From NCBI GenBank assembly GCA_030619925.1, contig JAUXAL010000038.1:1-38528 (forward strand): a DNA stretch of 38,528 nt, given 5' to 3'. The notes beneath the pieces are model-generated. The model worked only from the letters and a program-made list of their open reading frames with translations. It was not told the origin of the DNA and did not search any database. Positions 1,134 through 38,426 of this stretch are shown piece after piece; position 1 is the first letter of the stretch, and every line of letters begins with the position of its first letter. The position numbers and the translations under genes were made by a program. The stretch comes from Phycisphaerae bacterium. Lineage in GTDB: Bacteria; Planctomycetota; Phycisphaerae; Sedimentisphaerales; Anaerobacaceae.

Positions 1134-1228
1134 GGAGGTGACTGGTGCCTGGTGGTGCCCCTGGTCTTCAAAACCAGTGTGGGGCCGAGAAGGTCCCGGG
1201 TGGGTTCGATTCCCATTCGCCTCCGCCA
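1134..1228 (+). tRNA. selC: tRNA-Sec (anticodon UCA)
   Basis: This 95-base gene has every hallmark of a bacterial selenocysteine tRNA. The acceptor stem has 8 pairs (GGAGGTGA with TCGCCTCC, one G-U pair) followed by an encoded GCCA end. The anticodon stem CTGGT/ACCAG encloses loop CTTCAAA, giving anticodon TCA at 1168-1170, which reads UGA. A long variable arm pairs GGGGCC with GGTCCC. The T arm has 5 pairs around TTCGATT. The 8+5 acceptor/T architecture separates it from a suppressor tRNA-Ser. It lies about 1.9 kb upstream of an in-frame UGA in a deiodinase-like gene. No selA, selB or selD is visible in the window. Confidence 0.96.
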
Positions 1229-1332: not shown

Positions 1333-1581
1333 ATGCTGACAAGAAAAGGAAAAATCATTGTTTTCGGTCTCCTGATTCTGACTGGAGTAGTTCTATTAGC
1401 TTACGGTGTATTTTTCCATTCCGAAAACATTTTACCGCAACAAAATGAAGACTCAGCGATGCTTGTGCAGTCAGAACCGGCCCTTATTAAAGAGGTTTCA
1501 GTAGGCGGCATAAAGCGCGACGAGTCAGGCCGGCTCAAGCGAACTTACGATAAGACCCCGCCCAAAGCCTGTCCGACATGA
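1333..1581 (+). CDS. Small single-span membrane protein ending Cys-Pro-Thr-UGA
   Basis: I do not recognise the family. The 82-residue product starts MLTRKGK, has one hydrophobic segment (about residues 6-25) and a polar exported-looking tail ending TPPKACPT. A TTG at 1312 is an alternative start. No strong Shine-Dalgarno sequence supports either. The UGA at 1579-1581 is followed in frame by Pro, Gly and TAA (1588-1590), directly before the ribosome site of the next gene. If that UGA were selenocysteine, the protein would end CPT-Sec-PG, a CxxU redox motif. A hairpin at 1596-1614 lies downstream. This is speculative; plain termination is the default reading. Its position between tRNA-Sec and a NapH-like protein suggests a role in the same membrane redox system. 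Confidence 0.6.
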   Translation: MLTRKGKIIVFGLLILTGVVLLAYGVFFHSENILPQQNEDSAMLVQSEPALIKEVSVGGIKRDESGRLKRTYDKTPPKACPT

Positions 1582-1595
1582 CCGGGTTAAAAGAG

Positions 1596-1614
1596 GACCA
1601 TGGCGGCCATGGTC
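1596..1614 (+). promoter_or_regulatory. Hairpin over the NapH-like start; possible SECIS for UGA 1579
   Basis: GACCATGG (1596-1603) and CCATGGTC (1607-1614) are perfect arms around CGG. The loop starts 22 bases after the UGA at 1579-1581, within the distance range known for bacterial SECIS hairpins. If the top pairs open, the loop begins with G residues. It also sequesters the two candidate ATG codons (1600 and 1609) of the next gene, so translational control of that gene is an alternative. Confidence 0.3.
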
Positions 1615-2723: not shown

Positions 2724-4436
2724 ATGAGACGAACCTGCAGAAAAGTTGCCCGAAACGCCCCCGTTTGGCTGACAGCGATATTCTGTCTGGTAGCTCTGAT
2801 AACAGATATTGGAGAGGGTCGACAGCAGACGACGCAGAGAAGATCGGATAGAGGCTACAACCCCAAGATCAAGATAGGAGAATTTCCACCCGACTTCGAG
2901 CTGCCCACACTGACGCTCAAAACCGACGAAACAGGAAAACCTATCGGAGTAATAAGCGAAAAGGACACGGTCAGATTATCCTCCTTCCGAGGCAAAAAAC
3001 CAGTCTGCTTGATCATGTCCAGCTACACCTGACCCCCCTTCACGTCCCGGGCCAGGGACATTGAGAGATTGTACGCGTCGTACAAAGACCAAATTGAGTT
3101 CTTAATCGTTTATGTCCGCGAAGCTCACCCTGAGAAGTTGAGACAGGGCAATGAAACAGGTATCGTTGGCAGACCAAAAATCCTCGATGAGCGGATTATC
3201 CTGGCAACCGCATGTGTCACTAAGTATAGATTTACCATACCGATGGTTATCGACGGAATGGACGGCAAGGTCAATAACGACTATAAAGCCGCTCCTGTCC
3301 GCGTCACCGTCACTGATATTGACGGCAAGGTTGCCTTTTACGCCGGACCAGGACCATTTGATTTCAAACTTCCCCCGGTGGAGAGAACCCTGAAGAAGCT
3401 TATCGCTAACGCCGGCCGTATGCCGCCGCCACCGGTACCACAATGGGGTCAGCCGGTCAACGGTCTACGCTGCGGGCTCAGCCTTGACCCGGAACAGCTG
3501 GCCATCGGCCAAGAGGTCCTCATCCGGTTGAGATTTGAGAACACCACCGACAAACCCGTTAACTTCTATTACAAGCCCACCGAGGCCATCAAACACCTTG
3601 CTATCAATGGTGCCAATGGACAACAATTAAAGGTAGAAGCCTCCAGCACAGCCGGTCGGTCGCGTTTCAGACGGCGCAGCAGCCCAGTCCAAAGAATCGC
3701 ACCCGGACAGGCTTTTGAAACTGAAGTCGAAGGTAAAATCGTTGCCGCTTCCGACCAGGAGACATTTGCTGTCGGACAGTTCAACGTTGTGTACCACATC
3801 GAAGCCGACAACGAGACGCTGGCTCAAATCCAACCGGCTCCCACGCAGCCGGTCTGGACCGGAAAGCTCAGTTCCGGCACGTGCACCATCGATTTAGACC
3901 TGCCCCGCCAGGCAGGGTGCATTGATTGCCACGGCGATGCAGATTACCACCACAAGGAAACTTGGGACTGCGCAATCTGTCATGTAGGAGAAGTTGATAG
4001 TGACAACTTCGGTGTCAAGACCGAGTCGTGTGCTCAATGCCATCCTCGTGATGGTGTGTATGGTCGCAGACAAATCCTTGGGCCGGGTGGAGAATTTGAT
4101 ATGGCTTCCAAGCACATTTCCGGCACAATCGAGGACAAAGACTGCCTGTTATGTCATGACAATAAGCAACATCGCAACGGTGTCGTGAGTCTGATCGACC
4201 CGGATTCTGGTGGAACCGAGCCCTGGACAGGTACAGGTACGGATTTCTGCCTGGCCTGTCACGATGGTGATCCGCCTGCCAACATATCTTTCCCGGCGGA
4301 ATCCACCGGAACCGGCTTCGACAAATTGGAGTTCTTAGGCTCAGCTCTTTCACAGACTAAACAAAGTTGTAGCTATTGCCATGCCCCACATGGTTCACCA
4401 TACCCATCATTATTAAAGGACCTGCATAGTCACTGA
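2724..4436 (+). CDS. Deiodinase-like hexahaem cytochrome c selenoprotein (UGA 3030 = Sec)
   Basis: The frame is continuous from 2724 to 4436 except for one UGA at 3030-3032, read here as selenocysteine 103 of 570 residues. A signal peptide (about 1-34) is followed by a thioredoxin-fold domain. Its SSYT-Sec-PPF motif (99-106) matches the GSCT-Sec-PPF active site of iodothyronine deiodinases. VREAHP follows, with His135 matching the conserved deiodinase EAHP, and then a PMVIDGMD...GKVAFYAGPGPF stretch that also fits deiodinases. A beta-rich segment (about 240-390) of unknown role links to six CxxCH haem-c sites starting at residues 399, 416, 436, 474, 509 and 549. ATG 2724 is chosen for AGGAG six bases upstream; ATG 2685 lacks a ribosome site. 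A periplasmic multihaem reductase is inferred, probably supplied by the NapH-like neighbour. The substrate is unknown: halogenated organics, peroxide and thiols are all possible. Ordinary gene callers would split it in two. Confidence 0.9.
3033..3063 (+). promoter_or_regulatory. Candidate bacterial SECIS element
   Basis: Directly after the UGA, GTCCC (3044-3048) and GGGAC (3055-3059) pair around the six-base loop GGGCCA. The loop starts 16 bases after the UGA and begins with GG. Known bacterial SECIS hairpins carry a G at the start of a short apical loop at roughly this distance. Flanking CA/TG pairs may extend the stem. The element also encodes the SRAR residues of the protein. Confidence 0.7.
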
Positions 4437-5601: not shown

Positions 5602-6520
5602 CTAACGAGGCTTGCTGCTGGGAGTAGTCTCAGCAGGCAAATCGCCAAGGGCGAATTGAATGCCCGCCAGATAATGCTGAAGTATCGGCGGATTCCAGAA
5701 AATGTGGGGGTTATGGCCCAGAGAGCAATAGAACACTCGTCCTGTCCCGTAGCTGCGGACCCAACTGATAGCAATGGTCCTGACGGCGTTCCGGCAAAAT
5801 ATACCGGCCACTAATAACGTTGGTTTTAGTCATGTCGATACTTAATAGAACACGGAGTTTATCACGTGAATAGTGTTTCTGGAATTGGAATACCTCATCA
5901 CTAATTCTAAAGCCCTTGCCTTTAAGGGCAGCATTGAGCGGGTGGTCGGGGTCGTCCAATTTAATGGTTATCCATTCGTGATGTTTCCAAGGATGGCCGC
6001 CGTTTTCATAACCTCCGAGCATTTGGCCGAACTCCGGCCATTGATCGTATTTCGGCCACTGTACAAAGGTTGCGGCTGCGGCGTGAATGCCTATGAAACC
6101 CTTACCATCGTAAATGAAATCAAGGAGGCTTTTCTTAAGTTCAGGGTCTTGGAAAAGCACACCCGTGGTGTTGTTGAAGCATATTGCATCAAATTGCTGA
6201 AGATTCTCCGGTCTGAACATAGCTATATCATTACTAACTACCGTTTCATAGGCTCCTGTCTTTCGCCCCATCATTTCAAGCGCCAGGTTGCCATAAGGAA
6301 TTGAGGCATGGCCTTTTCTCACCAGGCCATCCCAAATATCCAGATTGAAAACCAGAAGTTTCCGAGGCCGCTTCGGGACAGCTGGTGCCTTTTTCGGTAT
6401 GGCGTCTTCTATGTTCTTTCTTTCCTCCGACGAAATGGCCGCTACCGAAATACTCGTTAGCAGCGAGAAACACCAGATGACAAGTAACGCTACCTTGATG
6501 CTTTTCGAGTTCCGCCTCAT
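5602..6520 (-). pseudogene. ThuA-like domain protein, frameshifted near the 3' end
   Basis: The intact part (6520 down to about 5781) starts MRRNSKS with a signal peptide. It shows ThuA-domain features: RKLLVFNLDIWDG, FDAICFNNTTG, FIGIHAAAA and GGHPWKHHEW. ThuA proteins have a glutamine-amidotransferase-like fold and are linked to sugar metabolism. After LPERRQD the frame should continue as [23 protein letters not shown], but that text lies in another frame running to a stop at 5602. Dropping one C near 5780 rejoins the two. It is either a recent one-base insertion that removes the C-terminal strand or a sequencing error; without it the gene ends at 5711. A ribosome site AAGGA precedes ATG 6520. 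It lies 92 bases after the oxidoreductase gene, probably in the same operon. Confidence 0.8.
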
Positions 6521-10021: not shown

Positions 10022-11746
10022 CTAATCATTTGGACCTATGTAGCCTTCTTTCTCAAGGTGTAGGATGATTTGCTGTACGCACTCCTCCGGCGACATCGCG
10101 GTAGTATCGATTGTTAGTTCGGCGTCGGCCGGCTGCTCATACGGGTCGGATATTCCTGTAAACTCCTTGATGACTCCGGCACGCGCTTTCGCGTAAAGAC
10201 CCTTGCGGTCGCGTTGTTCGCAAACTTCCAAAGGTGTTGCAACATGTATCAAGATAAAACCACCCACCGCTTCGATTATCTGCCTGACCTGCTTGCGAAT
10301 GTTGTCATAGGGCGCGATGGGAGCACAAAGTGCGATGCCGCCGTTTTTTGTGATCTCGGAGGCAACAAAACCGATGCGGCAGATATTGAGGTCCCGGTGC
10401 TGCTTCGAGAATCCCAGCTCCGAGGATAAGTTCTTTCGAACGATATCACCATCCAGCAGTGTTACCGGTCGCCCACCAGCCTCCAAGAGCTTCACCATAA
10501 ATACATTTGCCAGAGTTGATTTTCCAGCACTCGGCAGGCCTGTAAAGAATACGGTGAACCCTCGCTTGTTTCGCGCCGGGTAGGTGCACCGTAACTCTTT
10601 GACGATTTCGGGGAAGGAGAACCAAGAGGGAATCTCACGGCCGTCCGCGAGGCGGGCTCGCAACTCCGTACCGGACAGGGATTTGACCTCGGCGCCTTCC
10701 GGCACCTCGTCTACAGGCACATATTCGTCTCTGTCGGCTACGTACACCATCATTTTGAAGGGAACCATCTGAATGCCAAGCTCGTCTTGATGGCGGCCGA
10801 ACAGTTCTTGCGCATCATATGGCCCATAGAACGGCTGACCGCTGGAGTCAGAGCCCGGTCCAGCATGGTCCCTGCCGACAATCAAGTGAGTACACCCATA
10901 ATTTTTGCGAATGATTGCGTGCCATATAGCTTCTCGCGGCCCGCCTAACCGCATGGCAAGAGGTAGCAGTCTTATCATCGCGGTGTTGTGCGGATAATGT
11001 TTCAAGATTGATAGATAACATCTGACACGGGTGTAATGATCCACATCGCCGGGTTTCGTCATTCCGACGACAGGGTGAATGAGGAGGTCCGCTTCCAGTT
11101 CTTTTGCCGCCCGGAAAGTAAGCTCCTGGTGGGCACGATGCATTGGATTGCGCGTCTGAAAAGCAACCACCCGGCGCCATCCCATGGTAGCGAATTTCGT
11201 CCGGAGCTGCTGCGGCGTGAGCCGCAATTCTACGAAGTCATAATGGTTAGGAAGCTGCAGACATTCCAATTTACCACTCACATACCAAGGATTCGTGCTG
11301 TTCTGAAGGTACGCTACGCCCGGATGCTCGGGGTTCATCGATCCGAATGTCTGTTCTGCTTCCCGCTTCAGATCCGGCTGCCAAACCTCTTCCACATTGA
11401 GAGCAGCCAGCATGATACCTTCGGGGTCCCGAAGTGCCAACACCGAACCATTATTTAGATTCTTTGCCAGTTCCTCAGACACGTCAAGCGTAATCGGAAT
11501 CGGCCAGATGGTGCCGTCCGCCAACCTCATCTTCTCACAAACGCTCTCATAATCGCTGCGGCAAAGGAAGCCGCGAAGTGGTGAGAAGCCTCCGTTCGCC
11601 AGGAGCTCGAGGTCACAAAGCTGGCGGGGTGTAAGATTCCAGGAAGGCCAATCCCGGGAAAGGCGTTTGAGCTCTTCAGCTCTTTTTTGATCAACAACCA
11701 GGTTGACGAGTGTGCCACCGTGTGGCGTGATAAGATGAGAATGCAT
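10022..11746 (-). CDS. Bifunctional sulfate adenylyltransferase / adenylylsulfate kinase
   Basis: The 574-residue fusion makes APS from sulfate and ATP and phosphorylates it to PAPS. The N-terminal ATP-sulfurylase part (about 1-385) shows QTRNPMHRAH (197-206), GRDHAGPG (291-298) and SGTELRARLADG (358-369). The C-terminal APS-kinase part (about 395-574) starts with P-loop GLPSAGKST (403-411) followed by DGDIVR and DLNICRIGFVA. All core motifs of both domains look intact, so both activities are likely. It is cytoplasmic. AAGGA precedes ATG 11746. The response-regulator gene lies 52 bases upstream on the same strand. No cys reduction genes or sulfotransferase are nearby, so assimilation and sulfation of products remain equally open. 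Confidence 0.96.
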   Translation of the reverse strand: MHSHLITPHGGTLVNLVVDQKRAEELKRLSRDWPSWNLTPRQLCDLELLANGGFSPLRGFLCRSDYESVCEKMRLADGTIWPIPITLDVSEELAKNLNNGSVLALRDPEGIMLAALNVEEVWQPDLKREAEQTFGSMNPEHPGVAYLQNSTNPWYVSGKLECLQLPNHYDFVELRLTPQQLRTKFATMGWRRVVAFQTRNPMHRAHQELTFRAAKELEADLLIHPVVGMTKPGDVDHYTRVRCYLSILKHYPHNTAMIRLLPLAMRLGGPREAIWHAIIRKNYGCTHLIVGRDHAGPGSDSSGQPFYGPYDAQELFGRHQDELGIQMVPFKMMVYVADRDEYVPVDEVPEGAEVKSLSGTELRARLADGREIPSWFSFPEIVKELRCTYPARNKRGFTVFFTGLPSAGKSTLANVFMVKLLEAGGRPVTLLDGDIVRKNLSSELGFSKQHRDLNICRIGFVASEITKNGGIALCAPIAPYDNIRKQVRQIIEAVGGFILIHVATPLEVCEQRDRKGLYAKARAGVIKEFTGISDPYEQPADAELTIDTTAMSPEECVQQIILHLEKEGYIGPND

Positions 11747-12679: not shown

Positions 12680-15600
12680 GTGAAGAAAAGAAACCAGTTC
12701 ATCACTATGTTTATATGTATCTTGGCAATTGTCTCCATCTTGTTCGTGGCAAGACCTCAGCAGAGAGCACAACAGCATACAGCCAAGCAAATCCTGGATG
12801 CTACAGGTGTCAAGGGTGGCTTGATTGTACATGTTGGCTGTGGTGATGGGAAGCTGACGGCTGCACTGCACACCGGTGACAGCTACCTGATTCACGGCCT
12901 GGACGCGGACGCCAAGAACGTCGAAAAAGCCCGTGAGCATATTCGTTCACTTGGAATTGATAGCAAGGTATCGATTGAACACTGGAACACGGATTACCTT
13001 CCGTATGTTGATAACTTGGTCAATCTGTTAGTCTCGGAGAATTTAGGTGATATTTCAATGGAAGAGGTGATGCGCGTGCTGTGTCCCAAAGGCCTTGCCT
13101 ACATCAAGCAAAATGGCAAATGGACCAGGACGATAAAGCCGTGGCCTGATGAAATAGATGAATGGACGCATTTTCTCCATGGGCCTGACGGAAACTTAGT
13201 TGCCAAAGATTCTGCGGTAACCTTGCCATTTCACATGCAGTGGGTGGGCGAACCGACCCACTCCAAAACTCACAGCCATCTTTCCTCCGTGAATGTCATT
13301 GTCTCTGCCAGCGGGCGCATCTTCTACATTGCTGATGAAGGTCCCACTGCGTTGCCATTTTCTCTTCCCAGCCGGTGGGCACTGTTTGCCCGAGACGCAT
13401 TCAATGGGGTCACTCTCTGGCGACGCCCTATAGCTTCATGGCAGCCGTCCGACCTGTCCGGCCGGCACTTCTTTCCAGTTGACCTCTATCGCAGACTTGT
13501 TGCTGACAAAGACAGGGTATACGCGACATTAAGCATATTTGGCCCTGTTGAAGCTCTCGACGCTGCAACAGGCAAGACTATTATGAGCTATGAGGGAACG
13601 GATAATACAGAAGAGATGATTTACCACCAGGGTGTTCTCTTGCTCGTGATTAGTACGACCGCTCCAGGCGATATTGATCGTCGTCAATTGGCCGTGAAAC
13701 GCACACAGGCGCAACAGAAGCGAATCATGGCAGTCAAAGCTGATACCGGTAACGTTCTGTGGGAGAAGCGCAGCCCCGACACAATGGGCCTGATGCCCAT
13801 GACCCTTGCTGCCAAAGGCAAACGTGTTTTCTTCCAGAACACGGACAACATCATCTGCCTTGATTCGCAAACAGGCGAGGAACTCTGGCGCTGCCCCAGA
13901 GCCAGCTCATATGCGCGGCCCTCGTGGTCCGCTCCCACTCTTGTGGTGTATGATGGGTTTGTGCTCTCGGCCGACAGGAGGAGCACTGTTGCAAAGAAAA
14001 AGGCAAACGAGAAAAGAGCGGGCTCCACGAGGGCCGGCGAACTCGTGGTTCTTTCAGCCGAAACCGGCGAAAGACTATGGAGCACGCCATCGGCCGAGGG
14101 ATGTGGTTCGCCTATTGATGTCTTTGTCGTAGATGGATTGGTGTGGGTCGGAGAAGAAATGGGCAGGAAAGAACCCGACTATCGCAAGGTTCGCGACCTT
14201 CGCACGGGAAAGATTGTAAAGGAATTTCCACCCTCAGACGGCTGGGTCGACCACCATCATCACCGATGCTATCGAGACAAGGCAACAGAAAAATATATTC
14301 TTGCAGGCAGGACCGGCGTGGAGTTTATCGACCTGAACTCAGGAGAGGTGACCCCGAATCACTGGATACGAGGCATCTGCAAGTTTGGCATCCTGCCCTG
14401 CAACGGACTTCTCTATCTGCCGCCCGACCAGTGCGGATGTTATATCGACAGCAAACTGACCGGCTTCCACGTGCTTGCGCCAAAAAGGCCGGCCCCCGCT
14501 GCTTCGCTTTTGCGAAGCAAAACGGCGGGGGCACCCCGTCACCAAAGTAACCGCTTGGAAAAAGGTCCGGCATACGCGCAAATCGCAAATCGAAAATCGC
14601 AAATTGCAAATCCACATGATTGGCCCACCTACAGAGGCAATCCCGCACGCAGCGGCTACACGCAATCGCCCGTTCCGCTAAATCTCAAAACCATATGGCA
14701 GGCCAAAGTCGGAGGCAAACTAACCCAACCGGTGGTCGCCGACGGCAGAGTCTTTGTCGCCTCGGTAAATGCGCATACCATTAATGCTTTGGACGCCGAT
14801 ACCGGTAAAGCACTGTGGATCTATACGGCGGGAGCAAGAATAGACTCTCCGCCGACTATTGCAAACGGCCTGGCCGTCTTTGGCTGTAGAGACGGTTGGG
14901 TATATGCGCTGCGGGCCTCGGACGGGCCGGCAACGCCGGCCTTGATCATGCCCGCCTCCGGCGGGCTCGCCTGGCGATTCAGGGCCGCACCCGAGGACCG
15001 TAAGCTCGTTGCTCACGACCAGACCGAATCTGTTTGGCCCGTTCATGGAAGCGTTCTCGTCCAGGATGGAGCTGTCTACTGCGCCGCCGGCAGGTCCTCA
15101 TACCTCGACGGCGGAGTCTACATGTATAAGCTCGACCTGGCCAGCGGAAAGACTTTACTTGAAAGAAACTTCTACAGCCGAGACGCTCAGACCGGACGGA
15201 TGTCGAATTTATATGAGCCGTTTAAGGCGGAGATTCTGCCGGATCGCGAACTGCCGGGCGTGCTTCCCGACGTCCTTTCAAGTGACGAAGAGAATATCTG
15301 GATGCGAAGCGTGACCTTCAGCCCTGACCTGGTCATACAGCAAGACCATCCGCCGCATCTTTTCTGTTCAATGGGTTTTCTGGATGACTCGTGGTGGGAA
15401 AGAACGTACTGGATATACGGCCCCCATTTCTTTTCCGGTGCCGCAGGCGTCCATTTTGCCAAAGGGGTTTCTTCCGCGGGCCGGATTCTCGTCTTTGATG
15501 ACGCTTCGGTCTATGGATATCAGGATGAGACGTTTTCTTCCGTCGGCATCTTCTCAGCGGGCAAGGAGCCGGCGCTTGCCAAAGACAACGCCGCTAAGTT

Positions 15601-15991
15601 CAAAAAACCCAAGTTCCGCAACGCCCGTAATACAAAACTCCTCTACGATTGGTACAACGATGTGCCCCTTTATGGCCATGGGCTTGTCCTTGCCGGCCAG
15701 ACAATCTTCATAGCAGGCCCGCCCAAATTTGATGAACGAAACGTGCGCGCATATCTGACGAGCTGCAGAACCGACGACCAGCAACCTTCCGGAGTACTCA
15801 GAGATGCGCTGGACTCTTTCGAGGGCAGGAAAGGCGCGCTGATGTGGGCGGTCAACAAGTCAGATGGAAAGAAGATGGCTGAATACAAACTGGACTCGGC
15901 GCCGGTCTTTGATGGGATGAGCGCCGCCAACGGACGGTTATACATATCAACGCAAGATGGTCGGCTGCTGTGTATGGGCAAGAACGAGTGA
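12680..15991 (+). CDS. Methyltransferase-like domain fused to PQQ-type beta-propellers (copy 1)
   Basis: The 1103-residue protein starts at GTG with AAAGGA nine bases upstream and has a signal peptide or anchor (about 7-24). Residues 38-145 look like a class I methyltransferase fold: motif I VGCGDGK (52-58), HGLDADAKNVEKA after strand 2, and EVMRVLCPKGLAYI. The rest is PQQ/BamB-type propeller sequence in two blocks, the second opening at DWPTYRGNPARSGY. Repeats such as DADTGKALW recur. Why an exported protein keeps a SAM-type fold is unclear. Compared with its downstream paralogue it carries three in-frame inserted segments: a hairpin (14492-14532), a low-complexity repeat (14578-14611) and a double hairpin (14925-14966). 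Function is unknown. Confidence 0.85.
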   Translation: MKKRNQFITMFICILAIVSILFVARPQQRAQQHTAKQILDATGVKGGLIVHVGCGDGKLTAALHTGDSYLIHGLDADAKNVEKAREHIRSLGIDSKVSIEHWNTDYLPYVDNLVNLLVSENLGDISMEEVMRVLCPKGLAYIKQNGKWTRTIKPWPDEIDEWTHFLHGPDGNLVAKDSAVTLPFHMQWVGEPTHSKTHSHLSSVNVIVSASGRIFYIADEGPTALPFSLPSRWALFARDAFNGVTLWRRPIASWQPSDLSGRHFFPVDLYRRLVADKDRVYATLSIFGPVEALDAATGKTIMSYEGTDNTEEMIYHQGVLLLVISTTAPGDIDRRQLAVKRTQAQQKRIMAVKADTGNVLWEKRSPDTMGLMPMTLAAKGKRVFFQNTDNIICLDSQTGEELWRCPRASSYARPSWSAPTLVVYDGFVLSADRRSTVAKKKANEKRAGSTRAGELVVLSAETGERLWSTPSAEGCGSPIDVFVVDGLVWVGEEMGRKEPDYRKVRDLRTGKIVKEFPPSDGWVDHHHHRCYRDKATEKYILAGRTGVEFIDLNSGEVTPNHWIRGICKFGILPCNGLLYLPPDQCGCYIDSKLTGFHVLAPKRPAPAASLLRSKTAGAPRHQSNRLEKGPAYAQIANRKSQIANPHDWPTYRGNPARSGYTQSPVPLNLKTIWQAKVGGKLTQPVVADGRVFVASVNAHTINALDADTGKALWIYTAGARIDSPPTIANGLAVFGCRDGWVYALRASDGPATPALIMPASGGLAWRFRAAPEDRKLVAHDQTESVWPVHGSVLVQDGAVYCAAGRSSYLDGGVYMYKLDLASGKTLLERNFYSRDAQTGRMSNLYEPFKAEILPDRELPGVLPDVLSSDEENIWMRSVTFSPDLVIQQDHPPHLFCSMGFLDDSWWERTYWIYGPHFFSGAAGVHFAKGVSSAGRILVFDDASVYGYQDETFSSVGIFSAGKEPALAKDNAAKFKKPKFRNARNTKLLYDWYNDVPLYGHGLVLAGQTIFIAGPPKFDERNVRAYLTSCRTDDQQPSGVLRDALDSFEGRKGALMWAVNKSDGKKMAEYKLDSAPVFDGMSAANGRLYISTQDGRLLCMGKNE
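14492..14532. repeat. Palindromic mini-element inside a reading frame (A)
   Basis: Outer arms GCCCCCGC (14492-14499) and GCGGGGGC (14525-14532) enclose inner arms TGCTTCGC (14500-14507) and GCGAAGCA (14512-14519), with a five-base bulge on the 3' side. The matching linker of the paralogue has no such hairpin. It translates in frame as PAPAASLLRSKTAGA. Confidence 0.75.
14578..14611 (+). repeat. Low-complexity repeat in the inter-propeller linker, copy 1
   Basis: Near-tandem CGCAAAT words encode QIANRKSQIAN just before the second propeller block. The paralogue carries a different repeat at the same linker (17865-17899). Confidence 0.7.
14925..14966. repeat. Double hairpin inserted in a propeller blade
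   Basis: Two adjacent perfect 7-bp hairpins are seen: GGCCGGC/GCCGGCC (14925-14941) and GCCCGCC/GGCGGGC (14950-14966), each with a three-base loop. The paralogue reads ASDGALAWRF where this copy reads ASDG plus 12 extra residues and then GLAWRF, so about 36 bases were gained in frame. Confidence 0.7.
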
Positions 15992-16010
15992 ACAGAAAGG
16001 AGATTTAATA

Positions 16011-19000
16011 ATGACTGCAAGATTAAAAGCAAGGTCGATTAGCACAACGGTTATTCTGGCATTGGTGCTGGTTGTCGGTGCTCGCCTCGCCGGTGCGAAA
16101 CAACTTTCCTGGTCGGACCGTAAGCAGGCGCGGCAAATCCTGGACGCCAGCGGTGTCAAGGGTGGCCTGATCGTCCACATCGGCTGTGGGGACGGAAAGC
16201 TCACGGTCGCGCTGCGTGCGAATGACAGTTACCTGGTCCACGGCCTGGATGAGAGTGCCGAGAACATCGAGCAGGCCCGCAAGCATATCCAGTCGCTCAA
16301 CCTTTATGGCAAGGTGTCGGTCGACCGGTTGAAAGGCAATCGCCTGCCGTACATTGACAACCTCGTCAACCTCATTGTGTCAGAGGACCTCGGCAAGATT
16401 CGCAGAAGTGAGGTCACACGGGTTCTGGCGCCTAACGGAGCCGCTTACATTAAGAGGGCCGGCAAATGGACCAAGAGGGTCAAGCCTCGTCCCAAAGAGA
16501 TAGACGAATGGACGCATTACCTGCACGACGCAACCGGCAATGCGGTCGCGCACGATTCTGTAGTCGGGCCGCCGCGCCACCAGCAATGGGTTGGAAGCCC
16601 GAGATGGTCGCGACATCACGACCGGATGGCCAGTATGAGCGCGCTGGTATCGGCCGGGGGACGAATCTTCTACATCTTCGATGAAGGCCCAACCGCTATC
16701 ATCCAGCTGCCTCAGAAACGGGTTCTCATTGCGCGAGACGCGTTCAACGGCACCATCCTGTGGAAACGGCCGATTCCGTCGTGGCACACCCATCTGTGGC
16801 CTTTTAAGAGCGGACCGGCCCAACTGCAGCGCCGCTTGGTCGCCGTTGGGGACAGAGTTTATGTCACACTTGGTTTCCAGGCACCGCTGACTGCTCTTGA
16901 CGCAGCCACCGGAGAAACCATCCGGACGTATGAGAACACTAAAGCCACCGAAGAAGTGATTGCTTCGGACGGTGTGTTATTTTTGCTGGTCAGCGATGCG
17001 CCCATAAACTATAACGAATACAAGCCTGCGACCAATAATATCGGTCAGGCAAAAAGCCGTGTGGCAAATGAGTGGCCTTGGGATGAGCGCCCGAGGCGCA
17101 TCATCGCCATCAAGGCAGGCACAGGCGAGGTTCTCTGGAGCAAAGAGTGCCGAGTGGTCCCACTGACGCTGGCCGCCGACATGAAAGGTGTATTCTTCCA
17201 TGACGGCGAAAAGATCGTCTGCCTTAATCGCAAGAGCGGCGCCCAGCTGTGGGCTTCGCAGCCGGTTTCAAGACGGTCTCCTATTCCAAGCAATTTCGGG
17301 CCGACGCTGGTCATATACGAGGATGTTGTCCTCTTTTCGGGCGGAGACAGGTTTATGTCCGCGCTCTCGGCTCGAACGGGCAAGACCTTGTGGACATCCG
17401 ACCACCCCCGCTCCGGGCACAACTCACCGGAGGACCTTCTTGTCGTCGGTGGGCTCGTATGGTCGGGGGCAATCGCTGGCGGCAGGGATTCGGGTGTATT
17501 CACCGGCCGAGACCTGCATACCGGCGAGGTCAAGAACCAGTTCCCGCCTGACGTCGAGATATATTGGTTCCATCATCGATGCTACCGAGCAAAGGCGACA
17601 GACCGCTGGCTCCTGCCGTCAAGAACCGGCATAGAATTCGTTGACTTCCAAAACAACCGGTGGACGACACATCACTGGGTGCGGGGTGGCTGCATTTACG
17701 GCATCATGCCATGCAACGGCCTGGTCTATGCACCGCCCCATTCATGCGCCTGCTATATCGATGCCAAGCTGTACGGATTCAACGCGCTGGCCCCTGAGTC
17801 CCAAAGCCGGAAGGTCCCGCGGAGGGTATCGGACGCGGGCAGGCTCGAACGCGGCCCAGCGTACTCAGAAAACAGAAGACAGAAAACAGAAGACAGAAGT
17901 GCCGACGATTGGCCGACGTATCGCCACGACCCGGCGCGTAGTAGTTTCACAGAAGCAGAGGTCCCTGCTGAGTTGAAACGCGCCTGGGAAACGGAGCTGG
18001 GCGGTAAACTCAGCAGTGTAGTTGTCGCTGGGAACAAGCTTTTCGTCGCATCGGTGGACACCCACACCGTCTATGCCCTCGATGCGGGTTCCGGCGAGAC
18101 CCTCTGGAGCTTCACGGCTGGAGGGCGGGTTGACTCGCCGCCGACGATTTATCATGGCCGGGCCCTGTTTGGGTCGGCCGACGGCTGGGTTTATTGTCTC
18201 CGTGCCTCCGACGGCGCTCTTGCCTGGCGCTTTCGCGCGGCACCACAAAACCGGCGATTGACGGCCTTTGAGCAACTGGAATCTGTCTGGCCGGTCCACG
18301 GAAGTGTGCTTGTCCAGGATGATGTCGCGTACTGTGTCGCTGGAAGATCGATGTTCCTTGATGGCGGCTTGCGCTGGTTGCGGCTGGACCCGAAAACAGG
18401 ACGCAAGATATCTGAGACCATCCTCGATGACCGCGACCCCGAAACCGGCCAGAATCTGCAGGTGCACGTCAAAGGCCTGAATATGCCCGCCGCCCTTCCG
18501 GACATTCTTTCAAGTGACGGCAGTTACGTTTACATGCGAACGCAGCGCTTTGACCTCAACGGCGTTCGCCAGCATATTGCCCCAACGGACGTGACCGATC
18601 AGTTGGGTGAGGGACGGCATCTGTTTTGCACCACGGGCATGCTCGATGGCTCATGGTTGCACCGCTCCTACTGGATATTCGGCAAGAGCATCGCTTCCGG
18701 GGCCGGCGGCTGGCCTCGTGCCGGCAAGGTCACTCCAGCCGGACGACTCCTTGTTCTTGATGGCTCCAACGTCTATGGTTACGGACGCAGGCCGGAATAC
18801 TACAAGTGGACGACGCCGATGGAATACCACCTTTTTTCCAGTGCCAGGGAGCCCGAAATCGTCAAGCCAGCCAAACCCACATCGCGGCAGCAGAGAAAGA
18901 AGCAACGCTCAAGCATCACTAAACCGGTCTATCATTGGTCACGGGAAGTGCCGCTCTACGTCAGGGCGATGGTCCTGACCCGCTGCCCCGACTTGCGTCG

Positions 19001-19301
19001 GGAGACGCAGGGGCAGGCGGATAAAACTCTCTTTATGGCCGGCCCGCTCGACATAATTGATGAAGAGGAGGTATTCAGCCGCCCCGACGCGCGCGGCCTT
19101 GGAGAAAAGCTTCGTGAACAAACAGCGGCCCTTGAAGGTCAAAAAGGAGCTTTGCTGTGGGTCGTGTCGGCCTCGGACGGCAAAAAACTGGCACAATACA
19201 ATCTTGAGTCCGTGCCCGTGTGGGATGGTATGGCCGCGACTAATGGGCGGCTCTACCTTTCAATGAAAAACGGTAGAGTGTTGTGTTTTGGAGGGAGGTA
19301 G
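16011..19301 (+). CDS. Methyltransferase-like domain fused to PQQ-type beta-propellers (copy 2)
   Basis: This 1096-residue paralogue follows copy 1 by 19 bases and is probably co-transcribed and co-translated with it. ATG 16011 is chosen for the AAAGGAG site eight bases upstream and for the signal peptide (about 9-29) that results. The layout repeats copy 1: motif I IGCGDGK, acidic HGLDESAENIEQA, ITRVLAPNG-like strand, WTHYLHDATGNAV, then two propeller blocks with the second opening DWPTYRHDPARSSF. The linker carries a CAGAAG-type repeat (17865-17899), and a hairpin insert lies at 18983-19016. Propeller proteins of this kind bind PQQ only if enzymatic; I see no clear dehydrogenase Cys-Cys or Ca2+ site, so a binding or scaffold role is as likely. 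Confidence 0.86.
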   Translation: MTARLKARSISTTVILALVLVVGARLAGAKQLSWSDRKQARQILDASGVKGGLIVHIGCGDGKLTVALRANDSYLVHGLDESAENIEQARKHIQSLNLYGKVSVDRLKGNRLPYIDNLVNLIVSEDLGKIRRSEVTRVLAPNGAAYIKRAGKWTKRVKPRPKEIDEWTHYLHDATGNAVAHDSVVGPPRHQQWVGSPRWSRHHDRMASMSALVSAGGRIFYIFDEGPTAIIQLPQKRVLIARDAFNGTILWKRPIPSWHTHLWPFKSGPAQLQRRLVAVGDRVYVTLGFQAPLTALDAATGETIRTYENTKATEEVIASDGVLFLLVSDAPINYNEYKPATNNIGQAKSRVANEWPWDERPRRIIAIKAGTGEVLWSKECRVVPLTLAADMKGVFFHDGEKIVCLNRKSGAQLWASQPVSRRSPIPSNFGPTLVIYEDVVLFSGGDRFMSALSARTGKTLWTSDHPRSGHNSPEDLLVVGGLVWSGAIAGGRDSGVFTGRDLHTGEVKNQFPPDVEIYWFHHRCYRAKATDRWLLPSRTGIEFVDFQNNRWTTHHWVRGGCIYGIMPCNGLVYAPPHSCACYIDAKLYGFNALAPESQSRKVPRRVSDAGRLERGPAYSENRRQKTEDRSADDWPTYRHDPARSSFTEAEVPAELKRAWETELGGKLSSVVVAGNKLFVASVDTHTVYALDAGSGETLWSFTAGGRVDSPPTIYHGRALFGSADGWVYCLRASDGALAWRFRAAPQNRRLTAFEQLESVWPVHGSVLVQDDVAYCVAGRSMFLDGGLRWLRLDPKTGRKISETILDDRDPETGQNLQVHVKGLNMPAALPDILSSDGSYVYMRTQRFDLNGVRQHIAPTDVTDQLGEGRHLFCTTGMLDGSWLHRSYWIFGKSIASGAGGWPRAGKVTPAGRLLVLDGSNVYGYGRRPEYYKWTTPMEYHLFSSAREPEIVKPAKPTSRQQRKKQRSSITKPVYHWSREVPLYVRAMVLTRCPDLRRETQGQADKTLFMAGPLDIIDEEEVFSRPDARGLGEKLREQTAALEGQKGALLWVVSASDGKKLAQYNLESVPVWDGMAATNGRLYLSMKNGRVLCFGGR
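17865..17899 (+). repeat. CAGAAG-type repeat in the inter-propeller linker, copy 2
   Basis: Alternating ACAGAAG and ACAGAAA words encode ENRRQKTEDRS in frame. Related words occur outside genes at 23010-23060 and 26376-26450. This is the same linker that carries an unrelated CAAAT repeat in the upstream paralogue. Confidence 0.7.
18983..19016. repeat. Palindromic mini-element inside a reading frame (C)
   Basis: Outer arms CTGCCCC (18983-18989) and GGGGCAG (19010-19016) enclose inner arms TGCGTC (18994-18999) and GACGCA (19004-19009). The four-base bulge is on the 5' side, so this has the architecture of elements A (14492) and B (21203) in the opposite orientation. It adds about 15 residues (TRCPDLRRETQGQAD) relative to the paralogue. 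Confidence 0.7.
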
Positions 19302-37965: not shown

Positions 37966-38426
37966 AAATTGGCTTTGATTGGGTTTGAATTGGGTTCGAA
38001 TTGGCTTTGTTTTTTGGGACTGCGAAGGCGTCGTTTTTTCTGTAATCCTTTGTTATAAGTGAGTTTACATTCATTTGGGCTTTTCGGAAATTGGCTTTGA
38101 TTGGGTTTGAATTGGGTTTGTTTTCACCAAGTGTCCAATTGGATTTATTTTCATAATCCGTTGTATTATATAGATTTACATTCATTTGACTTTTCGGAAA
38201 TTGGGTTTGTTTTGCATAAAAAGTAGTGAAAACTTCGTAGGTTTTTCCGCTATTTCGGCCTGATATGACAAAAAAGCACTGTTTTCCGGCGTTTTGTGAA
38301 ACGATGGCCATTAGGAATGCTCCTGATGTCTGTTATCTGAAGTCCGAAGTCTGATGTCTGTTATCTACGAACAACGAACTATACGACATACGATATACGA
38401 TATACGTATGTTATTTATATATTATA
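37966..38426 (-). repeat. Dispersed repeat element, right copy (inverted)
   Basis: Read on the minus strand, this repeats the left element: TATAAT (38426-38421), a leader with GTTCGTTGTTC, GACATCAG-like words and an ATG at 38311 that opens MAIVSQNAG...SGRNSGKTYE. Two MNVN/KxNPI units follow where the left copy has one. The frame runs on into the start of the FAD oxidoreductase in another frame, so it is probably not a conserved protein. The copies lie about 37 kb apart in opposite orientation. Confidence 0.75.

Follow-up and report, generated by a model that had tools for sequence, protein, structure and literature searches.

We describe here a gene whose product joins a deiodinase-like domain with an in-frame UGA, a beta-sandwich domain and a hexahaem cytochrome c domain in a single protein. 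It lies in a 38,528-nucleotide stretch of DNA from a Phycisphaerae bacterium (phylum Planctomycetota, order Sedimentisphaerales; assembly GCA_030619925.1, contig JAUXAL010000038.1), which we analysed as a whole and call the window. The fusion is a real, conserved combination of known domains that is, as far as searched, undescribed. The sequences show that one gene joins six c-haem sites to a thioredoxin fold of the deiodinase type, with a UGA at the selenocysteine (Sec) position of deiodinases, and that this unit is conserved. We propose, with a probability of roughly 55%, that the protein would be a periplasmic selenol reductase whose own haems re-reduce it with electrons from the quinone pool. 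The gene and its parts are as follows.

2724..4436, + strand: gene of the deiodinase-like/beta/hexahaem fusion protein, 570 amino acids with Sec
2757..2810, + strand: hydrophobic helix at the N-terminus (residues 12-29; from the sequence and a low-confidence model), either a signal peptide or an anchor
2871..3413, + strand: deiodinase-like thioredoxin-fold domain, residues 50-230
3030..3032, + strand: UGA, probably read as selenocysteine 103
3039..3065, + strand: hairpin that may be the selenocysteine insertion sequence (SECIS) of the fusion, weak in the window copy
3435..3908, + strand: immunoglobulin-like beta-sandwich domain, residues 238-395
3909..4421, + strand: hexahaem domain, residues 396-566, with six CxxCH motifs and five invariant further His

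The initial annotation had proposed that a single UGA at the deiodinase Sec position (SSYT-Sec-PPF) interrupts an otherwise open frame, that EAHP follows 28 residues later, that six CxxCH motifs occupy the C-terminal part and that ordinary gene calling would miss the gene. Re-reading of the frame bears out all of this except the spacing. Between 2724 and 4436 there is one in-frame TGA (3030-3032), the frame is otherwise open and gives 570 residues on Sec read-through, and a Shine-Dalgarno-like AGGAG stands ahead of it at 2713-2717. The TGA is residue 103 in the context SSYT-U-PPF, the EAHP motif (E133-A-H-P136) begins 30 residues after U103, and the CxxCH motifs start at residues 399, 416, 436, 474, 509 and 549. 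Mechanical calling of open reading frames (ORFs) splits the gene into pieces of 115 and 455 amino acids, and ordinary gene calling is therefore expected to break it as well. The Pfam family T4_deiodinase (PF00837, cut-off 27) matches residues 88-225 with 66.6 bits, and four multihaem Pfam families score above cut-off at the C-terminus. Among solved structures, phmmer finds DIO3 (E 1.4e-12) and DIO2 (E 4.2e-11), and both rank as the closest structures, ahead of every peroxiredoxin row listed; on these measures the Sec domain belongs to the deiodinase fold.

Homologues with the same haem tail, which the initial annotation had suggested looking for, do exist. We searched an order set of 162 genomes, a phylum sample of 392 and a class sample of 398. 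In the order set 34 genomes have some match, and the whole protein is present in ten besides the window's own, at 57-78% identity. In each of these ten further fusions the corresponding codon is TGA and six CxxCH motifs are present; nine of them lack any other in-frame stop. The remaining copy (L094 in genome G424) has a second in-frame TGA at 6121-6123, in the linker between the signal helix and the deiodinase-like domain. Two more genomes hold parts cut at contig ends, with six (G462) and four (G476) CxxCH motifs. A separate search of named genomes, which rests on two peptide patterns and of which the best 80 of 523 relative-encoding stretches were kept, returned ten fusions, from the same ten genomes as in the order set. 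In the alignment of the 11 fusions Sec103, 12/12 haem Cys and all six proximal His are kept.

Median ratios of nonsynonymous to synonymous substitution rates (dN/dS) are 0.089 ahead of the UGA and, behind it, 0.104 for the deiodinase, 0.207 for the beta and 0.186 for the haem segment. They come from the 55 pairings of the 11 genes, of which 42-50 had usable dS once pairs near synonymous saturation were dropped. These values bear on the idea that the deiodinase-like and haem domains are independent and the fusion merely co-localises them. The modules do occur apart, as deiodinase plus beta without haems (G466, G443) and as beta plus six haems without deiodinase (G433, G435), but a three-part protein that ten other genomes keep at 57-78% identity, and whose parts are all under selection, makes such independence quite unlikely in our view. 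The two deiodinase-free genes (L055 in G433, L058 in G435) encode the beta domain of the fusion and six CxxCH motifs behind an N-terminal hydrophobic helix or membrane anchor.

A tree built from 45 domains of the deiodinase type groups all 11 fusions in one clade (support 100/99), which also holds two haem-free proteins with the beta domain (L096, L097) as well as a decayed copy, L098. One fusion origin followed by later losses is the simplest reading; it is not proved, because two changes are required on the best tree, whereas one is required in 22% of the bootstrap trees. The decayed copy (L053/L098, genome G422) has a deiodinase part with the UGA and then stops in the beta remnant, with no haem part matched, and another gene (L061, G438) has a deiodinase-like frame disrupted by two TAA, with no readable motif in a single frame; both broken relatives were excluded from the counts. 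A locus in genome G223 (L196, 2108-5122, minus strand) has an open frame with 12 CxxCH motifs that is in part 45% identical to the haem domain of the fusion. Outside the order, no fusion was seen in the phylum and class samples or among the best 80 of the 523 stretches in named genomes. The viral contigs searched held no relative of the fusion protein, the plasmids searched gave no match to it, and no PHROGs family matched at E 0.001. Some isolate names of the fusion-bearing genomes suggest that these may come from marine or estuarine sediment.

Several lines of evidence support Sec as residue 103, at the position that it occupies in deiodinases. The source genome (4.02 Mb in 141 contigs, 92.8% complete, 0.84% contaminated) encodes the Sec decoding machinery: selA, selB and selD each have one near full-length, above-cut-off match, all on one contig (C136), and the tRNA-Sec gene lies inside the window, about 1.5 kb upstream of the fusion gene.

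1134..1224, + strand: tRNA-Sec gene (Rfam RF01852, 77.6 bits, gathering threshold 47; ARAGORN tRNA-Sec tca, 1134-1228)

Relatives with and without haems point the same way. A match was found in 119 of the 392 phylum-sample genomes; 28 of the 29 phylum relatives that we fetched have UGA at the deiodinase Sec position, and the other (L027) lacks an in-frame TGA. Among the best 80 of the 523 named relatives the site is UGA in 64 and Cys in 16, the Cys forms mostly reading N-[FI]-T-C-G-P-F. Such Cys homologues had been put forward earlier as a check on the Sec claim, together with two outcomes that would undo it. Neither outcome materialised: no homologue ending at the UGA was seen among the relatives read, and a base-call error for a Cys codon is very unlikely because the same TGA stands in 11 separate assemblies. 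The notion that the UGA is an ordinary stop followed by a separate haem gene, or a sequencing error, gains something from the hairpin after the window's UGA, which is no stronger than shuffled sequence (z -0.41). Against it stand the same-codon UGA in 11/11 fusions, the UGA or Cys at this site in the best 80 named relatives, the presence of tRNA-Sec and selABD and a dN/dS of about 0.1 on both sides of the UGA. We reject it, on conservation, Cys homologues and selection, as exceedingly improbable.

Folding of the region after the UGA, which covered five of the 11 fusions, gave z scores of -0.41 in the window and -0.59 in L088, and of -3.50, -2.92 and -4.23 in L086, L094 and L095; RNAalifold picked another structure on the fusions than the proposed SECIS hairpin. 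In standalone deiodinase-like relatives, the pairing and covariation of the corresponding hairpin were reached by 0/500 shuffles, the number of double-changed pairs in 55/500 and that of further pair types in 53/500, and RNAalifold retained three of the six SECIS pairs. This result is optimistic, since the set (33 of 54 non-fusion Sec loci) was picked after viewing the sequences and rows in another register were left out.

The active site was compared with DIO1-3 (PF00837) by mapping residues through a profile alignment with the DIO structures; for the roles of these residues in DIO3 and DIO1 we draw on parts of PMC7506546, PMC11592359 and PMC9141512. Like DIO1-3, the fusion has the thioredoxin fold, Sec in SxTU-PPF and a Glu and a His spaced like Glu200 and His202. 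S100, T102, Y130, E133 and H135, the equivalents of Ser167, Thr169, Tyr197, Glu200 and His202, are present in 11/11 fusions, and the equivalents of Arg225 and Arg260 are likewise invariant. Unlike DIO1-3, it is bacterial, adds a beta domain and six haem sites, and bears other residues at the thyroid-hormone site: the place of His219 is Pro151 in 11/11 fusions, that of Trp207 is residue 140 (Arg in nine, Lys in two; the loop alignment behind this place is uncertain) and that of Phe258 is residue 191 (Pro in ten, Thr in one). The place of Arg275 is variable (7 Pro, 3 Arg, 1 Lys), a residue that, according to part of PMC7506546, is not conserved among DIO1-3 either. The proximal Cys (DIO1 Cys124, DIO3 Cys168) is replaced by Tyr101 in 11/11 fusions, and by Tyr or Phe in 41/41 aligned sequences; in the portions of the literature available to us, DIO1 needs this Cys for glutathione recycling, and it is not universal, the place being Ala in DIO2. 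A DGW motif after EAHP occurs in 0/10 named fusions, in 22/54 other Sec rows and in 13/16 Cys rows among the best 80 of 523. On the basis of the mapped residues, Tyr101 and the absence of DGW, the fusion appears to share its chemistry with deiodinases but not the hormone site, and it lacks the route by which DIO1 is recycled.

The same site speaks to a rival with identical wiring, in which the protein would be a selenium peroxidase fed by its cytochrome, akin to cytochrome c peroxidase with selenium in place of the peroxidatic haem, and its substrate H2O2 or an organic hydroperoxide. Both the ranking of DIO2 and DIO3 above every peroxiredoxin row listed and the deiodinase-type SxTU-PPF and EAH set argue against it, and we hold this alternative as possible but tentative.

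The haem domain has the marks of a multihaem c-type cytochrome, several CxxCH motifs together with conserved further His. The latter are invariant at residues 409, 410, 464, 483 and 556, and His568 is present in 9/11 fusions. Five invariant further His for six haems fit five bis-His haems and one with a less certain ligand. The cytochrome assembly family PF01578 is present twice. In a profile search the haem domain gave a weak match to OmcA (E 0.0011). Relatives outside the fusion group have no haem motif in frame (29/29 phylum relatives and 55/55 rows among the best 80 of 523).

Two further genes lie in the window behind tRNA-Sec and ahead of the fusion gene: one encodes a small protein, here called CxTU, with its own terminal UGA, and the other a NapH-like membrane protein.

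1333..1590, + strand: putative small selenoprotein CxTU with one transmembrane helix, ending C-P-T-U-P-G-stop, 85 amino acids with Sec
1579..1581, + strand: UGA of CxTU, apparently read as Sec, followed by two codons and the stop
1596..1614, + strand: SECIS-like hairpin of CxTU, 8 bp with a 3-nt loop, which overlaps the NapH-like start codon
1600..2457, + strand: NapH-like membrane 4Fe-4S protein (TIGR02163 69.5 bits, Fer4_5 53.3 bits, cut-off 22)

CxTU has a single hydrophobic helix and no Pfam or NCBIfam family above cut-off. A match that includes one TGA occurs in 44 of the 162 genomes of the order; in 30/30 fetched loci the frame closes with CxTU, two more codons and a stop, the NapH-like gene comes directly after, and in 21 of the 30 tRNA-Sec precedes CxTU, one further locus being cut by a contig end. 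The phylum sample has CxTU in 6/392 genomes, the window's own included; four of the other five loci were read (three of them outside the order; the weakest match, in G309, was left out) and all show CPTU beside a NapH-like gene. The hairpin of CxTU is paired in 97.4% of 232 cells over 29 distinct sequences, with 11 double-sided changes. No shuffle in 500 reaches its pairing, double-changed cells or covariation score; its tally of doubly changed pairs is reached by 62/500, and sliding the pairing partner abolishes the signal. As the shuffles ignore kinship and the hairpin arms include coding sequence, this support is strong but not absolute. We take CxTU to be a selenoprotein and likely a new small selenoprotein family, one that ordinary annotation would end at the UGA. 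Nothing on it was found in the open-access literature, and neither NapH nor CPTU is mentioned in the main text of PMC13188914. The order set also contains five weaker CxTU matches with no TGA in the matched stretch; the four that were read (L215-L218) lack the Cys and have no NapH-like gene within 3 kb around, and the TGA after their conserved region may be an ordinary stop.

The NapH family comprises quinol-side electron suppliers. Like the NapH/MauN quinol dehydrogenase subunits, the neighbour matches TIGR02163 and NapH and has two Fer4_5 stretches, with weak C-terminal ferredoxin matches below cut-off; unlike them, it has CxTU as its partner, and since its TIGR02163 score stays below the cut-off (69.5 versus 213.05 bits) we call it only NapH-like. 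The CxTU and NapH-like genes stand directly upstream of the fusion and in the same direction in 8/11 fusion loci, and CxTU is present in 10/11 fusion genomes versus 34/151 others (p 8.4e-6, shared ancestry not corrected for). This neighbourhood touches on a reversal of the proposed flow, in which the Sec domain would be a thiol/selenol oxidant of the ResA/DsbE kind that passes electrons into the haems and on to the cell exterior or a terminal acceptor. With an active site that lacks CxxC, is deiodinase-like and keeps the proposed proton relay, and with a neighbour that resembles the suppliers of electrons from quinol, we consider such a direction unlikely.

If the fusion is instead the selenol reductase that we favour, it would probably be periplasmic, a location suggested by the helix at residues 12-29 and by the c-type haems. 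The Sec103 selenolate would attack the substrate, most likely organic iodine or bromine and otherwise a peroxide, and the selenium would be left oxidised as Se-halide, Se-OH or a selenenyl sulphide; the proton may come from the conserved Ser-Thr-Tyr-Glu-His set, a role already proposed for its counterparts in DIO1 and DIO3. The electrons for re-reduction would arrive via the attached haem chain and not from glutathione or thioredoxin, the haems would be filled from the quinone pool by the NapH-like iron-sulphur protein, and CxTU could act as a membrane-anchored selenol/thiol relay. Direct reduction of the selenium by haem electrons, which the initial annotation had suggested, gains indirect support from the Tyr at the proximal-Cys place in 11/11 fusions and from the NapH-like gene ahead of the fusion gene in 8/11 loci. 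Direction and substrate are both what we infer, with an organohalide slightly ahead of a peroxide. In a bolder form, which we think improbable, the ensemble would be a selenium respiratory reductase, with electrons running from quinol through the NapH-like protein, CxTU and the six haems to the deiodinase-type Sec, which would deiodinate or debrominate organic matter; this would be a dehalogenation that serves respiration or maintenance and needs no corrinoid, carried out by a deiodinase fold wired to the respiratory chain.

A number of observations weigh against the proposed selenol reductase and its wiring. The haem domain has a predicted local distance difference test score (pLDDT) below 50 in the predicted model, and no structure links Sec to haem. 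Tyr at the proximal-Cys place is also found in haem-free relatives, so that Tyr101 is not specific to the fusion; Cys164, kept in 38 of the 41 aligned sequences and eight positions from the aligned distal Cys of DIO3, is likewise shared with them, and because both residues are common to haem-free relatives a thiol route through Cys164 is possible. Haem genes (ORFs of at least 90 amino acids with at least two CxxCH motifs within flanks of up to 6 kb) lie near standalone deiodinase-like genes in only 4/67 named loci, which argues for no general haem-gene association of these relatives. The window's own SECIS hairpin is weak, and the 11 fusions show no significant covariation in theirs. Three of the 11 fusions are not beside CxTU, which in two (G475, G424) is elsewhere in the genome and in the third (G527, 78% complete) was not seen. 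CxTU is also commoner than the fusion (44 versus 11 of 162 genomes) and thus has other partners; in G450 the CxTU/NapH-like module faces a standalone deiodinase-like gene instead. Finally, the fusion gene starts only after a gap of 266 bp behind the NapH-like gene, which weakens the case for co-transcription.

As to known systems, the Global Ocean Sampling survey of 2008 (PMC2398784) already listed deiodinase-like selenoproteins from bacteria, and PMC9312934 and PMC13188914 list them too. The fusion resembles them as a Sec protein of the same domain family, PF00837, and differs in its haem part, since the parts of these three papers available to us name no haem fusion for them; nor do the reviews, in the sections accessible, state a function for the bacterial relatives. 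The initial annotation knew of no deiodinase-like protein with c-type haems, and we likewise found none in the open-access literature. The best NCBIfam match is the deiodinase family NF038285, with 130 bits over residues 79-224; the score is below the cut-off of 250 and only model positions 192-341 of 347 are matched, which leaves the fusion outside that family. The pairing of a multihaem c-type cytochrome with Sec has counterparts in ExtKL (NF040886) and the octahaem tetrathionate reductase family (TIGR04315), both listed as multihaem selenoproteins in the 2026 review PMC13188914, which in the part consulted names no deiodinase link for them; neither is among the NCBIfam matches of the fusion at E up to 1. 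With OmcA/MtrC the fusion shares a match to PF22113 (33.5 bits, cut-off 30) as well as the OmcA profile hit, but TIGR03507 reaches 12.5 bits against a cut-off of 209.3, so that membership of that family is not indicated; nor is a link between the beta domain of the fusion and theirs.

Elsewhere in the window, 785-1025 and 37978-38317 belong to a dispersed repeat family with 97 matches across the source genome, several of which fall in adjacent pieces, and three similar repeats of about 60 bp, seen by eye, stand in a row at 121-300. Two adjoining, slightly overlapping ORFs of about 1100 amino acids each (12680-15991 and 15957-19301) each have a methyltransferase domain followed by matches to pyrroloquinoline quinone (PQQ)-type beta-propellers. 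On the minus strand, 10022-11746 is an ORF of 574 amino acids, recognised by eye as a putative fused ATP sulphurylase and APS (adenosine 5'-phosphosulphate) kinase.

How deiodinases are re-reduced in the cell is, according to part of PMC9141512, not fully clarified. If the scheme that we propose is true, the fusion would be a selenoenzyme that depends for its recharging on an electron-transport chain and not on thiols. Its six haems would form a built-in electron meter, in which a change of haem colour would report turnover, and the substrate should therefore be directly screenable.
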